A stretch of DNA of 64,000 nt from Thermoplasmata archaeon (GCA_022750195.1 JAKIWE010000002.1:168581-232580); one strand, 5' to 3'. Shown: positions 33,467 to 52,216, counted from the first letter of the stretch. Numbers and translations are program-made. The notes: generated from the letters alone by a model not told the origin.

Positions 33467-35092
33467 GTGTTCGGCGAAGAGAATCCCTGGTTCGAGCGGA
33501 AGACCTCCGGACAGCAGCGGACGAACGTGGGGGTCCCGAGTCCGATCCATCCGTCGGGTGATCGACTCGCCCTCCGTGCGGGAGAGTTCCCGGACGTGGA
33601 GCACGAAGGGAGAGAGGCGTCCCCCCGGCATGTCCTTCCGGTCGAACTCAGGAATCACTACGCTCGGTTTCCGGTCACGACACTAGCCGCGGCCCCGGCA
33701 GGACCCGTTCGCCGTCGCGGAATCGATCCTTCCCATCATTCACCTCACGGCTTCCTCGTGCAACACCAGTTCCCACCGCACCATCCACCGCATGCGGAGG
33801 GTGTGACTACCGGTGACCGAGTTCCCCCGTACGTGAGAGGACCTCCCCACGAGGATTTCGCCGATATCCACGGCGCCGGCACGTACATTGACCGCCGGCT
33901 CGGCGCTCTCACCTCTCGAGGTCCCGTCGGAAAGGGAGCGATTCAACTTCGCCCCCCGGAGCGAAAGGCGATCCTCGACTTCGTGAAGTCCCGCACGGGC
34001 GAGGTCGGTCGTCTCAGAATCCGGACTCTGCTTGCATGGCTTCCGGTCGCCGCAAGTCGACTGGGCGAACAGTTCCTCGCGCCTGACCGGAGCGCCCCCG
34101 TGGCCTTCCACGAGGCGTTCACTGAGTACTCGCGTTCGACCAAGGAAACCGCCGCGTCCTGCCTGGGGTCCTTCTGGCGGTGGTGGTTCGACCGAAAAGG
34201 GGAGGACATCCCTCGATGGCTTCGGATCCGCCTCGAGAGGTGGCAGCCGACGAATAGCGCCTCGGACATGCTCACCCGGGACGACATCGCTCGAATTGCC
34301 GAGAGCGCTCGGAACTTACGGGACAGCGCTTGGGTCTGGATTCTCTTCAGCTCGGGGTGCCGGCCCGGTGAAATCTATCGCCTAAGGATTGGAGATGTCG
34401 TTCCCCATGCGGAGGGGTTCATTGAGCTGAGAGTGGTTCGAGAGAAAGGATCGGCGCCCGAGCCTGCCCCCGTCTACGAAGACGCGGTCCCCGCACTACT
34501 CGGATGGCTTTCCGTTCATCCGCGCCACGATGCTCCCGACGCGCCGATCTGGGTGAATCGTACAGGTAGCCGGGCCGGTCAATTGGCAACGTACCGGGCC
34601 ATGTGCAAGTCGCTCGAGATGGCAGCCCATCGAGCTGGGGTGAGCAAGCCGGTCACGCCCTACGCTCTGCGGCGTTCGCGACTCACGATGCTGGCCAAGG
34701 ACCCAGCGATCTCGACCTCGATCCTCGAACGCATCGCCGGTTGGGTGCCCGGCAGCAAGGTCGCGCGACATTACATCCACCTGAGTGGCAAGGACGTGAT
34801 CGGCGCGCTCAACGCTCGGTATGGGGTGAACTCCAGCGAAGAGGAGGAGCCCCACGCCGAGGCACGCCCCCGATTGAACTGCGGACAGTGTACTTCAGCG
34901 AATCCGGCGGGCGCGGCGTATTGCATGACCTGCGGCGGTTCCCTGTCACTTCTCGCAGCCGGGCAGAGCGCGAAGGTTCGGGCACTGGACGCGGAGGTCG
35001 CCGAACTCATTCGTCAGCCCGAAGTCGTGGCGTTCCTGGTGCGGTCCCTCACCAGGAGCAGGTCTGGCAGAACGGATGCTCGCCGGGGATGA
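33467..35092 (+). CDS. Tyrosine recombinase/integrase with C-terminal zinc ribbon (true start probably ~33.9 kb)
   Basis: SSGCRPGEIYRLRIGDV; TPYALRRSRLTMLAKDPAISTSILERIAGWVPGSKVARHYIHLSGKD; CGQCTSANPAGAAYCMTCGG. Confidence 0.85.
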   Translation: MFGEENPWFERKTSGQQRTNVGVPSPIHPSGDRLALRAGEFPDVEHEGREASPRHVLPVELRNHYARFPVTTLAAAPAGPVRRRGIDPSHHSPHGFLVQHQFPPHHPPHAEGVTTGDRVPPYVRGPPHEDFADIHGAGTYIDRRLGALTSRGPVGKGAIQLRPPERKAILDFVKSRTGEVGRLRIRTLLAWLPVAASRLGEQFLAPDRSAPVAFHEAFTEYSRSTKETAASCLGSFWRWWFDRKGEDIPRWLRIRLERWQPTNSASDMLTRDDIARIAESARNLRDSAWVWILFSSGCRPGEIYRLRIGDVVPHAEGFIELRVVREKGSAPEPAPVYEDAVPALLGWLSVHPRHDAPDAPIWVNRTGSRAGQLATYRAMCKSLEMAAHRAGVSKPVTPYALRRSRLTMLAKDPAISTSILERIAGWVPGSKVARHYIHLSGKDVIGALNARYGVNSSEEEEPHAEARPRLNCGQCTSANPAGAAYCMTCGGSLSLLAAGQSAKVRALDAEVAELIRQPEVVAFLVRSLTRSRSGRTDARRG

Positions 35093-38471: not shown

Positions 38472-39194
38472 ATGATGCGGCCGGAGGGGAGGACCGTACG
38501 GAGCACCCGCGCCGAAGCGAGTCCCGAGGAGCTCATCGGCCCACTGACCGAGGTAGAGCGTAAGTTCGCCCCTAAGCACATTTACATGGAGGGGACGGCC
38601 AAGCTCCCTCTCGTCCACCCCCGCGTTTCGATTGTAGGCACTCGTACCCCAAGCTCGGCTGGTCGGCAGCTAGCTGGGGAAATCGCTTCTGGCCTCGCCC
38701 AGAGAGGCGTCATAGTAGTCAGCGGTCTGGCACGCGGAGTAGATACGGCGGTACATTCAGCGGTGATCGCGTCCGGGGGTTTCACGATTGCAGTACTAGG
38801 CACCCCACTGAGCCGCGTTTACCCCGCCGAGAACAAGGCTCTGCAAGAAGAAATCTCGCGGGACCACTTGGTCGTAAGCCAATTTCAGGAGGGGGCGTCG
38901 GTCCAACCCTCGAATTTCGTCATCAGAAATCGAACGATGGCCCTCATCTCCGATGCCTCGGTGATTGTCGAAAGCGGAGAGACCGGAGGCTCGTTGAGTC
39001 AAGGCTGGGAGACCCTCCGTCTTGGGCATCCGCTGTTCATTCACGATCGGGAATTCTCGAAGGCGCTGAGGTGGCCCTCCAAGATGGCGGAGTACGGAGC
39101 AATCCGCTTCCGAGACGCTGACGATATCCTCGACTTTCTTCCGACTGACAGCCCGAGGCCAGACCTTGCCATCCTTGCTCTTGAATCGACTTGA
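38472..39194 (+). CDS. DprA/SMF-family Rossmann protein
   Basis: VSIVGTRTPSSAGRQLAGEIASGLAQRGVIVVSGLARGVDTAVHSAVIASGGFTIAVLGTPLSRVYPAENKAL...IRNRTMALISDASVIVESGETGGSLSQG. Confidence 0.9.
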   Translation: MMRPEGRTVRSTRAEASPEELIGPLTEVERKFAPKHIYMEGTAKLPLVHPRVSIVGTRTPSSAGRQLAGEIASGLAQRGVIVVSGLARGVDTAVHSAVIASGGFTIAVLGTPLSRVYPAENKALQEEISRDHLVVSQFQEGASVQPSNFVIRNRTMALISDASVIVESGETGGSLSQGWETLRLGHPLFIHDREFSKALRWPSKMAEYGAIRFRDADDILDFLPTDSPRPDLAILALEST

Positions 39195-39846
39195 GTTTGC
39201 ATCTGTCCTCCAGTATCCTCCCCGGCTTGGAGTTGTCCAGAATGACCTCCTGAGCGAAGCGAGGACTGCCAGGAACCTCGTCCTTCAACTCAAGGGCGCC
39301 CTCGCCGGTTCCGAGTCCACTAGGACGGCGGATGTTCTCGCGAACCATCTGAGGGTGAACGATGCAACCCGGTCCTTTACAACCTCCTACTTTAGAGAAT
39401 CGACGATGCTCGTTCCCGTGCCGCGAAGCACCCTCCTAACGGCCGGGGGCCTCTGGCCCGCCCGCGTTCTCGCGAACAGTCTTAGGGGAGCAGGTCTCGG
39501 CGGGTCGGTCGGCGAGATACTCGAGCGGGCGAAACCGATTCGGAAGTCCGCGACGAGTCTCGGCGTGAACAGACCGGGTGTAGTCGAAAAGTACGAATCG
39601 CTCCGACTCGTTGCCGGGCTTGATATCCCCACCGAAGTGACGCTAATCGACGATGTTGTCACAACGGGAGCTGAATTCTTGGCTGCGGCGAACCGAGTTG
39701 CGGAGGTGTTTCGGAGCTCGCGGATCAAAGCCTTTGCCGCAGCCCGAACTATGAGCGGCCCACCCCGCTGGCCATTCAGTAAGGCAGTGGATCCCATTAG
39801 CGGCATGATCGAGTGCAGTAACAATCAGGCCTGGCGCAGCCCGTAG
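39166..39846 (+). CDS. ComF-like phosphoribosyltransferase (TTG start, overlaps DprA)
   Basis: MLVPVPRSTLLTAGGLWPARVLANSL; EVTLIDDVVTTGAEFLAAANRV PRPP-binding loop. Confidence 0.83.
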   Translation: MPSLLLNRLEFASVLQYPPRLGVVQNDLLSEARTARNLVLQLKGALAGSESTRTADVLANHLRVNDATRSFTTSYFRESTMLVPVPRSTLLTAGGLWPARVLANSLRGAGLGGSVGEILERAKPIRKSATSLGVNRPGVVEKYESLRLVAGLDIPTEVTLIDDVVTTGAEFLAAANRVAEVFRSSRIKAFAAARTMSGPPRWPFSKAVDPISGMIECSNNQAWRSP

Positions 39847-41247: not shown

Positions 41248-42681
41248 TTGACCCATGATGCGTCGTCAGCGTTCGGCGGGACCTCCAAGTTCAAGTGGGA
41301 CGATGGGCTCCGTGCGACGATGACCTCCTCTCAGGCGACACTCGGAGGCCCAGCCGCTACCGGAATGCTCGGGAGCCAAACCAACCTCTCTCACGATAAC
41401 AGGGTGTCGAAGGCCGACCGCGCGGCCCACCAGTGGTATCGATTCGTCCTATCTTTCCCACCGCATCTTGTCCGGCACTACGCTCGGGAATTCGGGTTGG
41501 ATGGTTCCTCTCTCATCCTGGACCCGTTTTGCGGGACTGGCACCACTCTGGTCGAAGCGAAGAAACTGGGCATTGCGAGCGCCGGGATCGAGGCACTACC
41601 CTTTGCTGCGTTCGCATCGTCGGTGAAGGTCGACTGGACGCCTGACCCCGTGGAGCTCTTGGAACACTCGCTCGGCGTTTCGGAGGAGGCTTGTCGCAGA
41701 TTGAGACGGCAAGGTATCTTCGACAGCCCGCTTGAGGGGTCGTCTGCAAGTTCTAGGGTAAGGCGGCCCAAGCTCCGCCAACTGGATCCAACTCTCAACT
41801 CCCTCTTACTAGCTTCGTCCATCAGCCCAAAGCCCTTACATAAAGCGCTGGTTCTCCTAGATGTTCTCCGCGAATACAGGGACGATAGGTACTACTCTCA
41901 CGAATGTCTATCGTTTGCGCAATCAATAGTGCGCGCAAGCAGCAACCTCCACTTCGGCCCAGAAGTTGGCCTTGGCGAGATTAAGTCCGACCCGCCTGTT
42001 GTTGCCCCCTGGCTTAGTGCCATGCGAGTGATCGTCGACGATTTGGAGTTCTTGCGAGCGCGCGCCTCAACGCAGGCGAGAGTTTACAAAGGCGACTCAC
42101 GGCACGTCTCTGGTTTCCTATCCGCGGGTTCCGTAGACGCGGTGTTTACTTCGCCACCCTACCCGAACGAAAAGGATTACACGCGGACCACTAGGCTCGA
42201 ATCCGTGTTGCTGGGCTTTACTTCGGACAAAGCGAGTCTCCGCGCCATTAAGCAGGAGCTAATCAGGTCCAACAGTCGAGGCGTCTTCCGCGCCGACACC
42301 GACGATGTACTTGTGGCAGAGAACGCTGAGATCGGTAAGGTCGCCGATCAGATCGAGGCCCGCCGAATGGAACTTCGCAAGACTTCCGGGTTTGAGCGTC
42401 TCTACGCGCGGGTAACGAAGCTCTACTTTGGGGGAATGCTTCGGCATCTACAGGACCTTCGGACAACTCTCAAACCCGGAGCTCGCCTCGCGTATGTTGT
42501 CGGGGACCAGGCATCTTACCTAAGGGTCATGATTCGCACAGGAAAGATTCTAGCGAGCTTGGCCGAATCCCTCGGCTACCAGCTGGATCGAATCGACCTT
42601 TTCCGCACACGCCACGCTACAGCCACAGGCGAACAACTGCGAGAAGAGGTCGTAGTTCTCAGGTGGCCGGGCGAAGGGTAG
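41248..42681 (+). CDS. DNA methyltransferase (N4/N6 amino-MTase fold)
   Basis: LILDPFCGTGTTLVEAKKLGIASAGIEA; VFTSPPYPNEKDYTR. Confidence 0.87.
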   Translation: MTHDASSAFGGTSKFKWDDGLRATMTSSQATLGGPAATGMLGSQTNLSHDNRVSKADRAAHQWYRFVLSFPPHLVRHYAREFGLDGSSLILDPFCGTGTTLVEAKKLGIASAGIEALPFAAFASSVKVDWTPDPVELLEHSLGVSEEACRRLRRQGIFDSPLEGSSASSRVRRPKLRQLDPTLNSLLLASSISPKPLHKALVLLDVLREYRDDRYYSHECLSFAQSIVRASSNLHFGPEVGLGEIKSDPPVVAPWLSAMRVIVDDLEFLRARASTQARVYKGDSRHVSGFLSAGSVDAVFTSPPYPNEKDYTRTTRLESVLLGFTSDKASLRAIKQELIRSNSRGVFRADTDDVLVAENAEIGKVADQIEARRMELRKTSGFERLYARVTKLYFGGMLRHLQDLRTTLKPGARLAYVVGDQASYLRVMIRTGKILASLAESLGYQLDRIDLFRTRHATATGEQLREEVVVLRWPGEG

Positions 42682-43544
42682 ACATACCTCTAAACCTACC
42701 TGCGAAAGTGGCCGACCAGTCCGGGGATGCGGAGCTGGCGCCAGACTCCGGCCCTACTAATCGGTACAGCAAGATTCTAACGAAGCTATTCGAGGATAGA
42801 TTTCAGCCTGGACGTATTGAAGTCCCATTTTCTCGAGAGAACATCGTCGAGACGGCACGCGACTTGAAGATCAAACTCCCCAAGAATCTTGGCGATGTCA
42901 TCTACAGCTTCCGCTTCAGAACCGAGCTTCCTGTCTCCATTTCGAGCAAGGCACCGACTGGCATGGTCTGGATCATCCGACCGGCAGGACGAGGAAAGTA
43001 CAACTTCTACGCGACGAAAATATCCGCATTTGGGCCCCGGCACGGGTCGAGCGTGACAAAGGTTCCCGACTCGACCCCGGGCCTTATCGATAAGTATTCA
43101 GTCGGTGACGAGCAAGCTCTCCTCGCGAAGATCCGCTACAACCGCCTGGTCGATGTTTTCACCGGCATCACCTGCTACTCCCTACAAAGTCACTTGAGGA
43201 CGTACATCGAAGATCTCGGACAGATCGAAACAGATGAGGTCTACGTGGGACTCGACCGGACCGGAACACAGTATGTACTGCCAATGCAAGCCAAAGGAGG
43301 TAACGACCGGCACAACGTGGTCCAAATAGAATCCGACTTCGCGATGTGCGCGAGTAAGTTTCCGGGTCTAGTCGCAAAACCTGTGGGAGCTCAGTTCATG
43401 GAGGACGATGTGATAGCGATGTTCGAGTTCAGTAGCGATCCCGAGGGAGTACGGGTGGCCCTTGAGCAACACTATCGCTTGGTCCGTCCAAATGAGCTGA
43501 CCTCGGAGGAGCTCGCCTCTTACCGCAGTCGCTTACCAAGATGA
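42663..43544 (+). CDS. Restriction endonuclease of the preceding methyltransferase, PD-(D/E)XK-like
   Basis: Overlaps MTase end; ETDEVYVGLDRTGTQYVLPMQAKGG resembles a D-X(n)-QAK core. Confidence 0.72.
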   Translation: MAGRRVDIPLNLPAKVADQSGDAELAPDSGPTNRYSKILTKLFEDRFQPGRIEVPFSRENIVETARDLKIKLPKNLGDVIYSFRFRTELPVSISSKAPTGMVWIIRPAGRGKYNFYATKISAFGPRHGSSVTKVPDSTPGLIDKYSVGDEQALLAKIRYNRLVDVFTGITCYSLQSHLRTYIEDLGQIETDEVYVGLDRTGTQYVLPMQAKGGNDRHNVVQIESDFAMCASKFPGLVAKPVGAQFMEDDVIAMFEFSSDPEGVRVALEQHYRLVRPNELTSEELASYRSRLPR

Positions 43545-43685: not shown

Positions 43686-44228
43686 ATGCCCGATGCTGTT
43701 GCGGAGGAGCCGGGCGATGCGAACGTTGTCGAACGCAAAGGGACTGCCGAGTTTCGACTTTCCGTTTGGAGGCCCGCACGCCTGCCGAGACCACTGTCGT
43801 ACTATCCCCCGTCTTCAAGAACTCGCAAGGCTGAGGGTGACGATCTCGAAGAAGGACCATTAGACCGCGGATTCCTTCAGGAAGAAATCTATAGCTGGGA
43901 TCCGGGCTCCATAGACGTCTGGGCCTCCCTTACACGTACAGAAGGGACGGACAAAGGTTTCCGCGAAGAGCTTTCGAGTAAGTTCTCACCCGCGCTCCCT
44001 CCAGCCTCTCGTTCTCTAAGCTTGTTTCGCGAGGCGGTGACTCGATTCGAAACGAATCTGGATAGGTCGAAGGACACAAAGTGGGCCGCAACCAGTCAAG
44101 AATTCGAGCTTCCCAACGGAGATACTCCGGTCCTTCGGACCGATACGATTCTCGCACTCCTGATGCATCTGCGCTGGATCGCGGACACATTTGAACACGT
44201 GCCGGCCGCGTCGGTTTCCATTAGATGA
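43686..44228 (+). CDS. Unknown 180-aa protein, first gene of PIN-AAA operon
   Basis: Stop overlaps next start (ATGA at 44225-44228). Confidence 0.72.
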   Translation: MPDAVAEEPGDANVVERKGTAEFRLSVWRPARLPRPLSYYPPSSRTRKAEGDDLEEGPLDRGFLQEEIYSWDPGSIDVWASLTRTEGTDKGFREELSSKFSPALPPASRSLSLFREAVTRFETNLDRSKDTKWAATSQEFELPNGDTPVLRTDTILALLMHLRWIADTFEHVPAASVSIR

Positions 44229-46366
44229 CGTCGGATCGGCTTTCCACTCATCCGGAGGTTAACGCCCTCATAGGAAGTGTCTTTTCTGCTCCGGCGTCTC
44301 CATTGGACTCGCTTTTTGAGGGAGGCGTTTCGCTCGATCTCGCGGTAAGAGATGACGTCGCCTTCGGCCAGAGCAAGTGGCTCGAGCTCGGAAAAGTCTC
44401 AATCCACGCGAGCGGCGTTGCCAGTGATGAAAACTCCGCTCAGCCGCTTAGTCGAGCCGCGCTCATGGGGTCCTTCGAATGGGCAATCCCTACACTCACC
44501 TCAGTTACAGATCAACTGGAAGCGCTCACAACCCTAGATTCAGCTGCTCCGGCGGCTGGAGGTCGCAGGGCCTCAGATCCTGCAGTAACTCGGCACAAGC
44601 TAGAGGAGGTTGCAAAATGGATCGCGTGCTCGGCAGTAAGGAGCGGTCTGATCCACCCTGTATTTGACGCCGGCTTGATTGAGGATTTGCCGTTCATCGC
44701 CCCCACGACTATCGTATGCGATACGTCAGCGGTGGCCCATGGCGCGCTGAATTTTGCGGCTCGATTCCTTCCGCCTCACGCCCGTTTCCGAGTACCCGCC
44801 ATAGTTAGCATGGAATTGATTGCCCAGACAGACAACTATCTCTCGGCAAGGAGAGGCGGGGCACTCACTCAGTTGCAAAGAATCGGCGCCCTCGGCCATC
44901 ACGCCATAAGCCAAGCCGGTCTTAGATGTTTGACCAGGCTCGCACTTCAACCCGATGTGGAAGTGGATCGGCCCAGACTCGGGGCCGACCCACTGAGGGG
45001 CATCGCCGAGCAGTCCCCCGATACAGAGGACAAGCTCCTTGGGATCCATCAGCTCGTGAAGAGCTTCGCAGACCGGCTCATTCTTGAGACTGCGATTCAG
45101 CAGAGAGAAAAGCAAACCTCTGATTGCAAGATTGGACTTCTCACCTCCGACCAGGGTCTAGCGCGAGCCGCCCTTGCTGAGGGCGTCCAGCCGTTCTTCT
45201 TCGACTCAGCCGCGAGCAAGAAGGCGTTCGGAACGACCGTTCTTGGAACATGCTTTGCTCCTCTCGTCGACCCTCAGTCGGACGCCCGATTGTACGCAGT
45301 GCCACTGACCGAGGTGCTCTGGGAGCTCGCCGTCTCCTTTGGGTCGGTTAGGCTCCAACAATCGACTCCCACGAAGAGCTTAGAAGTGACTGCAATCGGC
45401 CACAGCCTTTCCTGGCAACCTTTCCATTCACGCAATGATCTGATGTGGGTCAGGACCGAAGGTAGCACGGAAGCTGGGGCGGCCCCTCGAGGGAAGCGGG
45501 GACTCGCCCGCGCTCAAACCATCCTCGATCTCCCATCAGCGAAGGTCAAAGCGGCCCCCAGAGTGCCGCCATCGTCCTCACGTGGGTTGTTGGGTTCCTA
45601 TCGCTTCAGTCCCTCGGCAATGGTCATGTTGATCGATACCATGGCGGACAGGAATCGGCTCGAGGACTCCGAAGCTATGCAGCTTCTCGGGATTGCCAAC
45701 TACCAAGGCTACCTCGACTATCGAAATTTCCTAATCTCAGGAGAAATGGCCGCGGCCCAGGGGAATGGGCTGGCGCCTCTGGCGGCTCTGCGCAATCTTA
45801 GGATCGCAATCCGCCAACAGGATTTCGACGCGGCAGAGGCATTATTCCGACAAGTGCCGTCCTTCGCTCGATTCCTTTCCGAACTCAAGACGGGTTCTCC
45901 AACTGACCCGGGGAGTCTCAAACTTGTTCGACCCGCCGCTGTTAGCTCGTATCTCCCCCTCGCGGATGCCGCAGCGTGCGTGCTGTTTGTTCCCGGCGAG
46001 GGGATCTACGCAACACCGTTAAAACCGGACGCTCGCAGGTTCGCCGCGATGGGGCTTGCGGCGTTCAACGATTTGCGTAAAGGAGAAGAGCTTGTACGCA
46101 CAGGGCAGTGGCTCGAGGAACTTGGGCGGGCGGGTCTTCACCCTCTACGGACGAGGAGCCTCCTCGAACAATCATGGAGGGACAAGCTGCTAGTTCGTTC
46201 GTTCGAGGGGTCCACCCCGGAGACGAGATTCAAGGGACACAACGTCCACGCGTTCTCGACCGTCCAAGGTAGGGCACGTTTGGAGGAGCTCTCCCTGTAC
46301 GATGGACTGTTCCTCATGCCGGGGCGTGCCAGCGTCAGCCTGAGATTGGGTAAGGTCGAGACATGA
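44225..46366 (+). CDS. Large PIN-domain-containing protein (713 aa)
   Basis: TTIVCDTSAVAHGALNF ... VPAIVSMELIAQTDNY ... FADRLILETAIQ ... CKIGLLTSDQGLARAALAEGVQPFFFD: ordered acidic residues of a PIN nuclease. Confidence 0.78.
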   Translation: MTSDRLSTHPEVNALIGSVFSAPASPLDSLFEGGVSLDLAVRDDVAFGQSKWLELGKVSIHASGVASDENSAQPLSRAALMGSFEWAIPTLTSVTDQLEALTTLDSAAPAAGGRRASDPAVTRHKLEEVAKWIACSAVRSGLIHPVFDAGLIEDLPFIAPTTIVCDTSAVAHGALNFAARFLPPHARFRVPAIVSMELIAQTDNYLSARRGGALTQLQRIGALGHHAISQAGLRCLTRLALQPDVEVDRPRLGADPLRGIAEQSPDTEDKLLGIHQLVKSFADRLILETAIQQREKQTSDCKIGLLTSDQGLARAALAEGVQPFFFDSAASKKAFGTTVLGTCFAPLVDPQSDARLYAVPLTEVLWELAVSFGSVRLQQSTPTKSLEVTAIGHSLSWQPFHSRNDLMWVRTEGSTEAGAAPRGKRGLARAQTILDLPSAKVKAAPRVPPSSSRGLLGSYRFSPSAMVMLIDTMADRNRLEDSEAMQLLGIANYQGYLDYRNFLISGEMAAAQGNGLAPLAALRNLRIAIRQQDFDAAEALFRQVPSFARFLSELKTGSPTDPGSLKLVRPAAVSSYLPLADAAACVLFVPGEGIYATPLKPDARRFAAMGLAAFNDLRKGEELVRTGQWLEELGRAGLHPLRTRSLLEQSWRDKLLVRSFEGSTPETRFKGHNVHAFSTVQGRARLEELSLYDGLFLMPGRASVSLRLGKVET

Positions 46367-47520
46367 ACGTTCGATCCCTTCTGGGAACAACGGCAGTCTC
46401 CGAGCAGACGCTTTCGCAAAAGGCATTTCAGAGATACGGTGTCATTAGGAACCCGTTCCCTTCTGCAGCTCAAACCTTCGACCATCCTCGGCTTCCCATT
46501 CAAGGCGTCGATCAACGAATCGTAGACGCCGTGCACGAGTTTGAGGGGGGGGAGAACAAAACGCGCGTGTTTGTAGTCGAGGGCACTCAAGGAGTCGGAA
46601 AGACAAACCTTCTGAACAACTACCAGCGGGATTTGGAGGATTATTTCTCCAAGGAGAAGGGCTTCTACATAATCAAATACTACCCGGACCCCGAGCGAGA
46701 TTTTGACAGAATCGTGCGGCGGATTTTCCAAGATCTAGGTGAGGTTCACCTGCTCAAGCTCGTTTCCGCTTTGTCGGAGATGTCGGATGAGGAAATGGGC
46801 CAGGAGATAAACTCACTTCGCAGCTACGAGGTGCGAGTAATGCTTCGCAAGCTTGTCGAGGCGACCAAGGACCAGAGTCTTGAACGCTCACAAGGGCTTG
46901 CCTTGGCTCTCCAATGGCTGACGGGCTTGAGACTCCTGAATCGGCACCGCGACGCACTTGGCGTCCAATTCAGACTTGATACAGTCGAGTCCCGGACTCA
47001 AGCCCTCCACGACGTCGTCTACCTTGGTGCCAAGTTGGGTGTCCTGAAAGGACTAATCCTCCTCTTGGACGAGCTCGAGAAACAAGGCAGCACGCTTCCT
47101 GAAAAGACTGTAACACTCTACCTTTCCGCCATCCGCGCATTGATCGATTCTCTTCCTCGACATCTGTTCATGATTCTGGCCATCACGCCAGAGGCTCGAA
47201 CGAGGTACTATGGGATGCTCCCTGCTCTTGCGAGCCGATTATCCGACATTCTCGTCCTTAATCCCCTAACTGAGCTTAATCAAGCTCAGGAGTTGTACAA
47301 GGGGTATCTCGGTTGGGCGCGCGATGAGGCGGTAAAGTCGCAGAAATTCCCAGGCGTAACATCGAAGAGCGAGGAGCTCTTTTCCGCAGACGAAATCAAG
47401 AATCTCTACACAGACCTTTACTCAAAGTCTGCTGAGGCAGCCTTCACCGGAGTGACTCAACGAGAGTTCCTTCGACAGCTTAGCAATATGACCAACGAGA
47501 AATTTGAGCACTTGGTGTAG
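46363..47520 (+). CDS. AAA+/STAND-like P-loop ATPase
   Basis: VFVVEGTQGVGKTNLLNNYQ (Walker A), LKGLILLLDELEKQG (Walker B), MILAITPEAR; ATGA overlap with PIN gene. Confidence 0.85.
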   Translation: MNVRSLLGTTAVSEQTLSQKAFQRYGVIRNPFPSAAQTFDHPRLPIQGVDQRIVDAVHEFEGGENKTRVFVVEGTQGVGKTNLLNNYQRDLEDYFSKEKGFYIIKYYPDPERDFDRIVRRIFQDLGEVHLLKLVSALSEMSDEEMGQEINSLRSYEVRVMLRKLVEATKDQSLERSQGLALALQWLTGLRLLNRHRDALGVQFRLDTVESRTQALHDVVYLGAKLGVLKGLILLLDELEKQGSTLPEKTVTLYLSAIRALIDSLPRHLFMILAITPEARTRYYGMLPALASRLSDILVLNPLTELNQAQELYKGYLGWARDEAVKSQKFPGVTSKSEELFSADEIKNLYTDLYSKSAEAAFTGVTQREFLRQLSNMTNEKFEHLV

Positions 47521-49105: not shown

Positions 49106-49696
49106 GTGAACGCTTTCGAGAAGACGGCTGGCGCCGGAGGGGAGGGCGACATATCAAACCGAATCAACATCACGGACGAATGGAAGGAAGCGCGAAACGT
49201 CATCAACAACTGCGATTCCCAGGTCTCGGACATCCGGAAGTACGGGCTCTCCTTTGTTTCCGGATTACTCGCGGCGCAAGGGCTTATTGAGTTCCCGCTG
49301 AAGTCGGCGTCGCAGGTTGTCCCTGATTCCGTCAAACTCTCCATCCTAATCGCGAGTTACCTGCTGATTGTGGGAATCTTCGACCTCGATCGCAAAGCTC
49401 GAAACACTCAACGTGCCGCGGCTCACCGAGCGTGCATGCTCGAGGGGCGGAGTGGACTTCAGCTCGGCTTAACCCAGCTGATTAGCAAGTCCTATGGGTC
49501 GGAGGCCGCCGTCACATCGGCCGATGTCCTGTACTTGGTGTTCGTGGGTGCCACCACCATTCTTGGGCTGGCGGTCCTAGGCATCACTTCCCTCACACCA
49601 AGCTTCGACCTAGTCGTCCTCCTTGTGTTCGCGGGAGGAACCGCGGCCGTAGTCTACTTGTTCGGTCACACCAACCGACTCCGACGGTTCCTGTGA
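49106..49696 (+). CDS. Four-TM membrane protein, unknown function
   Basis: Soluble N-terminus (DEWKEARNVINNCDSQVSDIRKYG) then hydrophobic segments; GTGA overlap with the MBL gene. Confidence 0.75.
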   Translation: MNAFEKTAGAGGEGDISNRINITDEWKEARNVINNCDSQVSDIRKYGLSFVSGLLAAQGLIEFPLKSASQVVPDSVKLSILIASYLLIVGIFDLDRKARNTQRAAAHRACMLEGRSGLQLGLTQLISKSYGSEAAVTSADVLYLVFVGATTILGLAVLGITSLTPSFDLVVLLVFAGGTAAVVYLFGHTNRLRRFL

Positions 49697-50985
49697 CCCG
49701 GCACCTGGCGACCGCCTTCACAACACATGGCGTGGGTCAGGGTCTGTTCTACTCGGGTGTCATCGCCCCAGAGGAAGCGACACGCCCGCTCAATTTCGTT
49801 TACGATTGCGGCGTGAACTACGACGTTCCGGTTCGACCGTTCCTACACCAGAGAGTTGACAGTTACAGGAGCCAGACTCTTGGGGTTCAGAGGGGAACGA
49901 GGACCGAGTTAGATCTTCTGTTCGTCTCGCACTTGCATGGAGATCATGCGTCGGGGCTTCGGCGACTTCTACGCGATGTGTCGACGAAGTACGTCTTTCT
50001 ACCGTACCTGAGCCAAGTCGACCGCACAATCGCAGCGCTCGCTAGCCCGGAGGCCGAAGAGTGGTACTTCGACTTCCTCAGTGACCCGGTCCTGTATCTG
50101 AAGAACGAGCTGGATGTAGGGAAGATCGTACTGATGCTCCGAGGAGGGCCCCCGGAGAATGATGTGCGTATTGAAGATCGCCCAAGGGACCCTTCCGAAG
50201 CTCTCGATGCCGCGGTGCGCGGTCTTAGAGACGCGGAAAGTCCGGATCGCCTTCTCGGATCTGAGCCGAATCGGTCGGAATGGAATCGCCTCCGCGGAAA
50301 TCGCGACCTACTCTTCAAGACGGACACCAGGGCCCTCAACCTTCCTCAGTGGATGTTCCGATTCTATTCCGTGCAATCGAACCCCGACGCGCTGCGAAGC
50401 TTCCACGTCGAGCTACAGCGGTTGACCGCGAAGCTTTCCCTGCGCGACTTGCTAACAGTTGGGAAGAATCGAACGCTACTCCGAGAGACGTACGAGAGAC
50501 TCGCCAATGCGGATGATGTGTTGAAAGGTGAGGTCAACAACACCTCCCTCGTCACTTTCCACGGTCCCACCAAGGGAGCGACGGGAGCTCAACAGTTCGG
50601 ATTCGACGGTGGAGCGGTCTGCTGTTTCGGTCCCCACGCAACTACTCACCCGCCCCGCATGTGGCCGTTCGGAACCTTGCTGACGGGGGACATCAACCTC
50701 CGCCAGGATTCAATTGTAGATACCCTCCGGGATCACTTTATCCACGAGAGAACCGAGGTAGGAACGCTCTTCGTTCCCCATCACGGATCGATCGATTCGT
50801 GGGACGCGACGACGCTCGACGATTACCCCAACGCCGTTCAGGCCATTGTCTCGGCTGGGGTGGATAGCTACTACCGGCATCCGTCACCCACTGTCATCCG
50901 AGACCTCTGCGGTGCCCGTCGAACGTTGCATTGGGCCAATCAATTCTGTCAGGTCACCCAGTCGATGGCACTGGAACTCCCATAG
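49693..50985 (+). CDS. MBL-fold (ComEC-type) metallohydrolase
   Basis: LLFVSHLHGDHASGLRRLL; LLTGDINLRQDSI; VGTLFVPHHGSIDSWD. Confidence 0.87.
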   Translation: MTRHLATAFTTHGVGQGLFYSGVIAPEEATRPLNFVYDCGVNYDVPVRPFLHQRVDSYRSQTLGVQRGTRTELDLLFVSHLHGDHASGLRRLLRDVSTKYVFLPYLSQVDRTIAALASPEAEEWYFDFLSDPVLYLKNELDVGKIVLMLRGGPPENDVRIEDRPRDPSEALDAAVRGLRDAESPDRLLGSEPNRSEWNRLRGNRDLLFKTDTRALNLPQWMFRFYSVQSNPDALRSFHVELQRLTAKLSLRDLLTVGKNRTLLRETYERLANADDVLKGEVNNTSLVTFHGPTKGATGAQQFGFDGGAVCCFGPHATTHPPRMWPFGTLLTGDINLRQDSIVDTLRDHFIHERTEVGTLFVPHHGSIDSWDATTLDDYPNAVQAIVSAGVDSYYRHPSPTVIRDLCGARRTLHWANQFCQVTQSMALELP

Positions 50986-51277: not shown

Positions 51278-52216
51278 TCAGTGCCAATACTTCTGGAAGG
51301 CGTCGAGCCTCCATCGCAGAGCTTCCACAGCTGGCCGATCCTCGTCTCTCGAGGGGAGATTCAGTAGTCGTTTGCCCTCCCACGAGAGAACGTGATTTTT
51401 TGCAGCGCTTTTCCGGAACTCCGAATCGGCTGTAAGGCCGACTCTCAGATCCTCGTCGACGGTCCAGGCATTCCGATCGAACAGCGCGTGGTGGTTCCTG
51501 CAAAGGAGCAGACCATTTCGGACGTCACCGATCACCCCGTTGGCCTCGACTGGTATGATGTGGGCCGCCTCGACCCCTATCGGTCGGCCGCGGAGCCTGT
51601 ACCCTACGTTGCAGAGCGCACATCGTTCATTGTAGACCCTCCGAACAACTTCGCTGAATCGATGATCCCGCATAGTCCGGAGGGACTGAGCTTGCATCGG
51701 TCCGGAGGACTCGAAAGGGTGGAAGACCGGCTCAACATTCTCCGGCACCGGACTCGTCGTCCAGTCGATTGCTTCACCGCGAATGACGAAATGATCTCCG
51801 TCGAAGGCCTCTACGTAGGCCAGTCCCATTACCTCGTACTCGGAGAGACCCGAGGGGCCCCCCACCTGGCGGAAGACTCCTACAGGTATTCTGTCGTCCC
51901 GACACCTCAGCAGTCCTGCGTTTGTAGGGAGCGATAGGTCCGCCCTTCCATCGCGGGATTCGGGGGAGTAGAAGTAGGTCCAGGACCCGTCTGGCCTCCA
52001 TTCGATTCGCTTGTCCGCGTATGGGCTGGTCAGAGTCTGGCGAATCCAAAGGGCGTAGTTCGACCCCGCCGGCTTGTAGATTCCCCGCTGGCTTTGGAAT
52101 CCCCTAATGGTCGCCTGAAGTTCCTCGCTTGGCAGGATTTGGCCGAATAGCTCTCGGATTTTTGAGAGCTGGGCAGCCAGTTCTGGCACGGCTACATTTT
52201 CGAGGGGGTCGGCCAT
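51278..52216 (-). CDS. HNH restriction endonuclease with SRA/YDG-like N-terminal region (COG3440-like)
   Basis: CALCNVGYRLRGRPIGVEAAHIIPVEANGVIGDVRNGLLLCRNHHALFDRNAWTVDED. Confidence 0.83.
   Translation of the reverse strand: MADPLENVAVPELAAQLSKIRELFGQILPSEELQATIRGFQSQRGIYKPAGSNYALWIRQTLTSPYADKRIEWRPDGSWTYFYSPESRDGRADLSLPTNAGLLRCRDDRIPVGVFRQVGGPSGLSEYEVMGLAYVEAFDGDHFVIRGEAIDWTTSPVPENVEPVFHPFESSGPMQAQSLRTMRDHRFSEVVRRVYNERCALCNVGYRLRGRPIGVEAAHIIPVEANGVIGDVRNGLLLCRNHHALFDRNAWTVDEDLRVGLTADSEFRKSAAKNHVLSWEGKRLLNLPSRDEDRPAVEALRWRLDAFQKYWH

Follow-up and report, generated by a model that had tools for sequence, protein, structure and literature searches.

Several described systems share parts of the organisation reported here. 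In a large comparative study, the BREX protein BrxD was classed as a stand-alone AAA+ ATPase of the ORC-Cdc6 type that is possibly a helicase loader on DNA, and its function was called uncharacterised (PMC12839542). According to the same study, BREX can be accompanied by PIN RNases that act as accessory effectors, and its accessory modules include pairs of an OLD-ABC ATPase and a PIN RNase (PMC12839542). PARIS (AriA/AriB) and Septu also combine an ATPase with a nuclease effector. Two further defence systems with PIN domains, DS-3 and DS-5 of DefensePredictor, have been validated, and the PIN catalytic residues were required against phage; according to the available text of that report, DS-3 consists of one protein, in which the PIN domain is split, and DS-5 of two proteins, with a DUF5830/AcrIF4-like partner (PMC13092281). 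In VapBC modules, a small gene lies upstream of a PIN nuclease gene and is translationally coupled to it.

We analyzed an operon of three genes in a window of 64,000 nucleotides, i.e., the whole stretch of DNA under study, from a Thermoplasmata archaeon. All three genes are encoded on the plus strand. Gene 1 (43686..44228) is an ORF of 180 aa for which tblastn relatives and alignments were obtained, gene 2 (44225..46366) encodes a PIN protein of 713 aa, identified by tblastn, Pfam, and AlphaFold, and gene 3 (46363..47520) encodes an AAA+ ATPase of 385 aa that is BrxC/BrxD-like, based on an AAA_22 match and on PF10923 matches in relatives. ATGA stop/start overlaps join gene 1 to gene 2 (44225..44228, plus strand) and gene 2 to gene 3 (46363..46366, plus strand). 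Three same-strand ORFs of these sizes with four-nucleotide overlaps had been proposed in an earlier sequence-only reading, and the ORF calls agreed with it throughout. Judged by sequence comparison, all three are real genes, because tblastn recovers all of them, in order, in other genomes. The operon was also correctly placed behind a restriction-modification (R-M) pair: it starts 141 bp downstream of a type II methyltransferase gene (41248-42681) and restriction endonuclease gene (42663-43544; PADLOC PDLC03404, E 2e-105), both on the same strand as the operon.

The co-occurrence of the genes was analyzed with a DNA pattern that represented only the ATPase (NPF, followed 36-46 residues further on by GxxGxGKTNL), and 84,980 species genomes were scanned. 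The test was unbiased, because the pattern ignored genes 1 and 2. It matched 27 stretches, of which six encode true relatives of the ATPase, and in all six a PIN gene was located directly upstream of the ATPase gene. The whole operon was found in Albidovulum, Paraburkholderia phenoliruptrix, a gammaproteobacterium, Acetobacter orleanensis, and Neoroseomonas oryzicola; these five proteobacterial loci hold all three genes, gene 1 included, with protein identities of 25-43%. In a distant member of the Poribacteria the PIN and ATPase genes are recognisable and the middle gene is split into separate ORFs for the PIN part (375 aa) and the C-terminal half (289 aa, with a weak match to the gene 2 family), which may be due to an assembly frameshift. 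The poribacterial PIN protein led to one more locus, on plasmid pT173c of Ensifer canadensis, with genes of 126, 662, and 402 aa and four-nucleotide overlaps; profile comparison yielded E 3.9e-12 for its PIN protein and E 7.1e-19 for its ATPase. In both of the latter loci a first gene is present in the same place, and its homology to gene 1 was not demonstrable by sequence comparison.

The tblastn E values in relatives ranged from 1e-105 to 1e-93 for the PIN protein, from 5e-86 to 3e-77 for the ATPase, and from 1e-12 to 1e-7 for the small protein, which was matched in four bacterial loci. The overlaps were conserved as well: that between genes 1 and 2 is ATGA in six loci and TAATG in the gammaproteobacterium, and that between genes 2 and 3 is ATGA or GTGA wherever the PIN gene is fused. 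Pairwise protein distances co-varied over the eight loci (window included), with r values of 0.97 for PIN and ATPase, 0.89 for the small protein and PIN, and 0.91 for the small protein and ATPase (Mantel test, p ~0.001 or less). Thus, the expectation of the sequence-only reading that homologues co-occur and lie near defence genes was borne out, as PIN and ATPase genes are paired and defence neighbours recur. The operon is evidently a unit whose conservation extends over both archaea and bacteria. When plasmids, phages, and viral contigs were searched with individual proteins of the core family, no relatives were recovered, and the matches of the DNA motif for YGxxRNPFP in viral contigs were all due to chance.

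Of the three components, the ATPase shows the highest conservation on average. Its Walker A motif, GTQGVGKT (residues 74-81; 46582..46605, plus strand), contains five residues that are identical in all eight loci (G74, G77, G79, K80, and T81), and the same is true for NPFP ahead of it (residues 30-33), for the Walker B residues D236-E237 in LLLDELEK (47068..47073, plus strand), and for R292. The window protein matched AAA_22 with an E value of 1.8e-5. PF10923 (BrxC/BrxD) matched five of six members (best 1.5e-8) and also the poribacterial protein, at 23.7 bits versus a cut-off of 22.2; the window ATPase itself is not listed for PF10923 and was assigned through its 39-42% identity to members. 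These results support a BrxC/BrxD-like ATPase of the ORC/Cdc6 class. The earlier designation as an AAA+/STAND ATPase therefore stood in its AAA+ part, narrowed to BrxC/BrxD, and was not supported in its STAND part: NACHT and nSTAND matches of the window protein were below the cut-off, and the protein, with 385 aa, has no repeat domain.

Membership of the ATPase in the BrxC/BrxD superfamily (PF10923) is the likeness to BREX, and the differences are considerable. The best score against the NCBIfam equivalog BREX_BrxD, 21.2 bits for the poribacterial ATPase, was far below the cut-off of 350 bits, and the window ATPase had no BrxD match in NCBIfam at all. In the loci examined, the surroundings of the operon contained neither PglZ nor PglX, nor a BREX gene order, and the partner of the ATPase is a PIN protein. 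PglZ (PF08665) had no match in the archaeal genome or in three genomes of relatives (G391, G394, and G395), and in three others (G390, G392, and G393) the matches lay elsewhere, outside the regions around the operon. BREX was rejected as the identity of the system in the archaeal genome, because PglZ is absent from it.

The nuclease region of gene 2 comprises about residues 160-345 (44702..45259, plus strand) and was delimited by conserved acidic residues and by AlphaFold and Foldseek. Among the candidate catalytic residues, D166 (44720-44722), D283 (45071-45073), and D309 (45149-45151) are identical in all eight loci, while E197 (44813-44815; all plus strand) is found in seven and is absent in Ensifer; E288 and E319 are also identical throughout. 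PF13638 (PIN_4) matched five of six members (best 1.9e-5); the poribacterial PIN protein (1.3e-7) exceeded the cut-off, and the window protein (0.02) stayed below it. The AlphaFold model, built with eight sequences, had a mean pLDDT of 75.9, and Foldseek retrieved the PIN domain of SMG6 (E 3.7e-4, probability 1.00) as well as PIN domains of M. jannaschii and Thermus (3i8o / 3ix7; TM by target up to 0.70). The PIN domain claimed earlier was thus corroborated by Pfam in relatives, by the SMG6 match, and by the conserved acids, and the structure prediction that had been suggested as a check of the PIN site recovered the fold with the acids present. Taken together, sequence and model support a putative metal-dependent PIN nuclease.

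The C-terminal region of the same protein is modelled as two winged-helix-like units (about residues 462-690; 45608..46294, plus strand), mostly with pLDDT values near or above 90 and with a helix-helix-helix-strand-strand pattern. Foldseek matches of these units to winged helices of SelB, UFL1, MarR, and IclR were all weak, none being below E 0.05, and would support the fold class only. The target of the nuclease would most likely be RNA (tRNA, rRNA, or mRNA), with an abortive outcome. The main rival to this RNase reading, which we regard as unlikely, is that the PIN protein cuts DNA: the winged helices and the ORC/Cdc6-type ATPase would load it onto invading DNA, and the system would be restriction-like or replication-blocking, akin to BREX. 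The BrxC/BrxD-like ATPase fits this version, given the possible helicase loading on DNA by BrxD (PMC12839542), as do the predicted winged helices, the archaeal RuvB-like Holliday-junction helicase (5f4h) among the best Foldseek matches, and DNA-modification genes near several loci. However, the unit has no conserved methyltransferase or other mark of self and non-self, the nearest unambiguous PIN matches (SMG6 and PIN_4) either are RNases or have no established substrate, and winged helices bind RNA too, a SelB fragment being among the matches.

The product of gene 1 is the least conserved and fastest-changing of the three proteins, mean identities over the eight loci being 23% for the small protein, 30% for PIN, and 37% for the ATPase. 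Its conserved features are an N-terminal W motif (W28), an LQEE(I/V)(Y/F)SW block, and a C-terminal SVS(V/I)R tail. Searches of Pfam, the PDB, and Foldseek yielded no relative; the structural model was weak (mean pLDDT 71) and without structural match. One of the structure predictions of this analysis was based on an alignment without the Ensifer sequence. The low conservation, together with the position directly upstream of a coupled PIN gene as in VapBC, would be compatible with a toxin-antitoxin-like module in which gene 1 neutralises a PIN toxin, the ATPase is accessory, and defence is secondary or absent. We consider this improbable: the PIN proteins of the operon are large (660-725 aa) and multidomain, unlike the small VapC toxins, the best conserved gene is that for the AAA+ ATPase, which is present in every locus, and neither a recognisable antitoxin fold nor an antitoxin-type DNA-binding fold was found for gene 1.

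Recognised defence genes adjoin the operon in six of the eight loci, including the window. The neighbours are an Abi-alpha gene in Paraburkholderia (3.5e-44), HmaA in the gammaproteobacterium, TmtA and a CAP12/Pycsar-type TIR gene in Acetobacter, a type ISP R-M gene and a DUF6884 gene ahead of the operon in the poribacterium, and HmaA-, HmaB-, and HmaC-like genes in Ensifer. The Hma genes (DUF1156/DUF499/SNF2) form a separate operon in opposite orientation and are absent from the other loci. No recognised multi-gene defence system is annotated beside the operon in Albidovulum and Neoroseomonas; both loci are possibly near toxin- or nuclease-like genes, and in Neoroseomonas a transposase is encoded nearby. 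A fixed partnership with R-M was rejected, as only two loci have R-M genes next to the operon, namely the window and the poribacterium (type ISP in the latter); the type II pair of the window does not belong to what is conserved in the proteobacterial loci. The set of relatives is small (n=7), and a defence-island setting can reflect hitch-hiking.

Comparison with model collections yielded no name for the operon. No system model in Pfam, NCBIfam 20.0 (2026), or PADLOC 2.0.0 (2023) fitted genes 1 and 2, and gene 3 had only generic marginal matches in PADLOC 2.0.0 and NCBIfam 20.0, without a specific system model. The PADLOC profile mad8 is a generic ABC-like profile, and its match is uninformative because it was found in all 14 control genomes. 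The ATPases of PARIS and Septu are of the ABC/OLD class, whereas the ATPase of the operon is ORC/Cdc6-like, and the PtuA profiles of Septu matched marginally (E ~0.002). DS-3 and DS-5 differ from the three-gene operon in their one- and two-protein composition, and no AAA+ ATPase is described for them in the available text (PMC13092281). The literature searched, which excluded bioRxiv and most subscription journals, contained no description of the three-gene unit. Thus, of the interpretation given in the sequence-only reading, the PIN domain, the AAA+ ATPase, and the lack of a named system persisted, the last with respect to Pfam, NCBIfam (2026), and PADLOC (2023), while the STAND class did not; its proposals that the ATPase licenses PIN cleavage and that the gene 1 product is an adaptor are kept here as inferences.

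The recurrence beside anti-virus genes and the lack of a match to a named system therefore indicate that the operon is probably an undescribed virus-defence system. Our main reading, to which we assign a probability of roughly 55%, is that it is a self-contained, horizontally transferred anti-virus system of three components in which the ATPase licenses the PIN nuclease. The AAA+ protein and the winged-helix/PIN protein would form a complex, which the winged helices would probably tether to nucleic acid. When infection is sensed, ATP binding or hydrolysis would release the metal-dependent nuclease, and the product of gene 1 might act as an adaptor for specificity or sensing, or might hold the nuclease back. 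A more specific version is that, in an archaeon and several bacterial lineages, infection is sensed by an ORC/Cdc6-type AAA+ protein, in place of a STAND or ABC ATPase, and that this protein controls a winged-helix PIN nuclease by way of a small variable adaptor. This version, which would tie replication-initiator-like ATPases to abortive immunity by RNA cleavage, is proposed tentatively and falls somewhat short of even odds. If the main reading holds, the operon would be an unnamed addition to the class of ATPase-plus-nuclease systems and would provide a BrxD-like ATPase with a nuclease partner outside BREX. It would be a compact system shared by archaea and bacteria with clear candidate catalytic residues, and therefore the role of ORC/Cdc6-like ATPases in immunity could be tested with two point mutants.

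The distribution of the operon bears on a further alternative, namely a mobile-element or housekeeping module (a TniB/ExeA-like ATPase plus an RNA- or DNA-processing nuclease) that resides in islands by chance. Weak matches of TniB and ORC-type profiles to the ATPase and mobile-element genes nearby, such as the integrase gene in the window (33467-35092), would be in line with it. Yet the unit has no conserved transposase, the defence neighbours vary between loci, and among the 61 genomes analyzed from the genus the ATPase is present in the archaeal genome itself and in none of the other 60, a pattern that, like the decayed traces in the Acetobacter family, does not resemble that of a housekeeping function. 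We regard this alternative as the least probable of those considered. In 16 other genomes of the genus, the ATPase-family profile gave weak partial matches, nearly all within its N-terminal 90 positions. In a sample of 390 genomes of the phylum, the ATPase and the PIN protein occurred in the archaeal genome only, and 385 alphaproteobacterial genomes and 300 of the Paraburkholderia family contained no operon beyond the seed genomes. Among 320 genomes of the Acetobacter family, one further copy was found, which was decayed, and none that was intact; the Albidovulum genome contains a second, decayed PIN fragment. As far as its sequence distribution indicates, the operon is rare, patchy, and prone to loss, and it apparently moves by horizontal transfer.

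The origin of the window itself was also analyzed. The host genome is evidently archaeal, because it contains RNA_pol_N (PF01194; E 1.6e-27), encoded on a contig other than that of the window; among the 14 control genomes, only the four archaea matched this profile. The contig of the window appears native to the host, because a gene in the left part of the window has clear relatives across the genus, in most of 25 other genomes (at most 58% identity, E ~1e-95 or better). To the right of the integrase gene the GC content drops from ~0.68 to ~0.57, and this lower GC content, the adjoining integrase, and the patchy occurrence mark the operon patch as foreign DNA. In agreement with the earlier placement of the operon inside a defence island, it is surrounded by a ShosT-like pair, the R-M genes, an HNH nuclease, a second N6/N4 methyltransferase, Shedu, and SIR2. 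In our own reading, the ShosT-like phosphoribosyltransferase gene sits behind a DprA-like gene. The island also encodes a protein with a metallo-beta-lactamase fold.

In the Poribacteria locus L065 (2669-9946), a type ISP R-M gene, a DUF6884 gene with a match to PDC-M57A (1.1e-6), the small gene, the PIN gene, its C-terminal piece and the ATPase gene all lie on the same strand, and perhaps form a single larger composite operon. Two other genomes contained decayed copies with internal stops, one of the PIN C-terminus (G391:C181:5991-6566) and one of the ATPase (G1249:C23:400879-401419).

In the window, a tyrosine recombinase gene (33467-35092), the product of which has a C-terminal double zinc ribbon match, is located at the GC step where the island begins. 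At 38472-39846, a DprA-like gene is followed by a phosphoribosyltransferase gene matching ShosT (1.3e-14); the two are likely an archaeal ShosTA pair.

At 49106-50985, the gene of a 196-aa protein is coupled to that of a 430-aa metallo-beta-lactamase-fold protein, the GTG start of the latter overlapping the stop of the former. A PADLOC match to PDC-M48B was obtained (3.3e-5), and a separate membrane/MBL defence pair is possible. The HNH protein encoded at 51278-52216 (minus strand) resembles, in its C-terminal half, the phosphorothioate-DNA-binding restriction endonuclease family; against NF045808 it scored 79.7 bits, under the cut-off.
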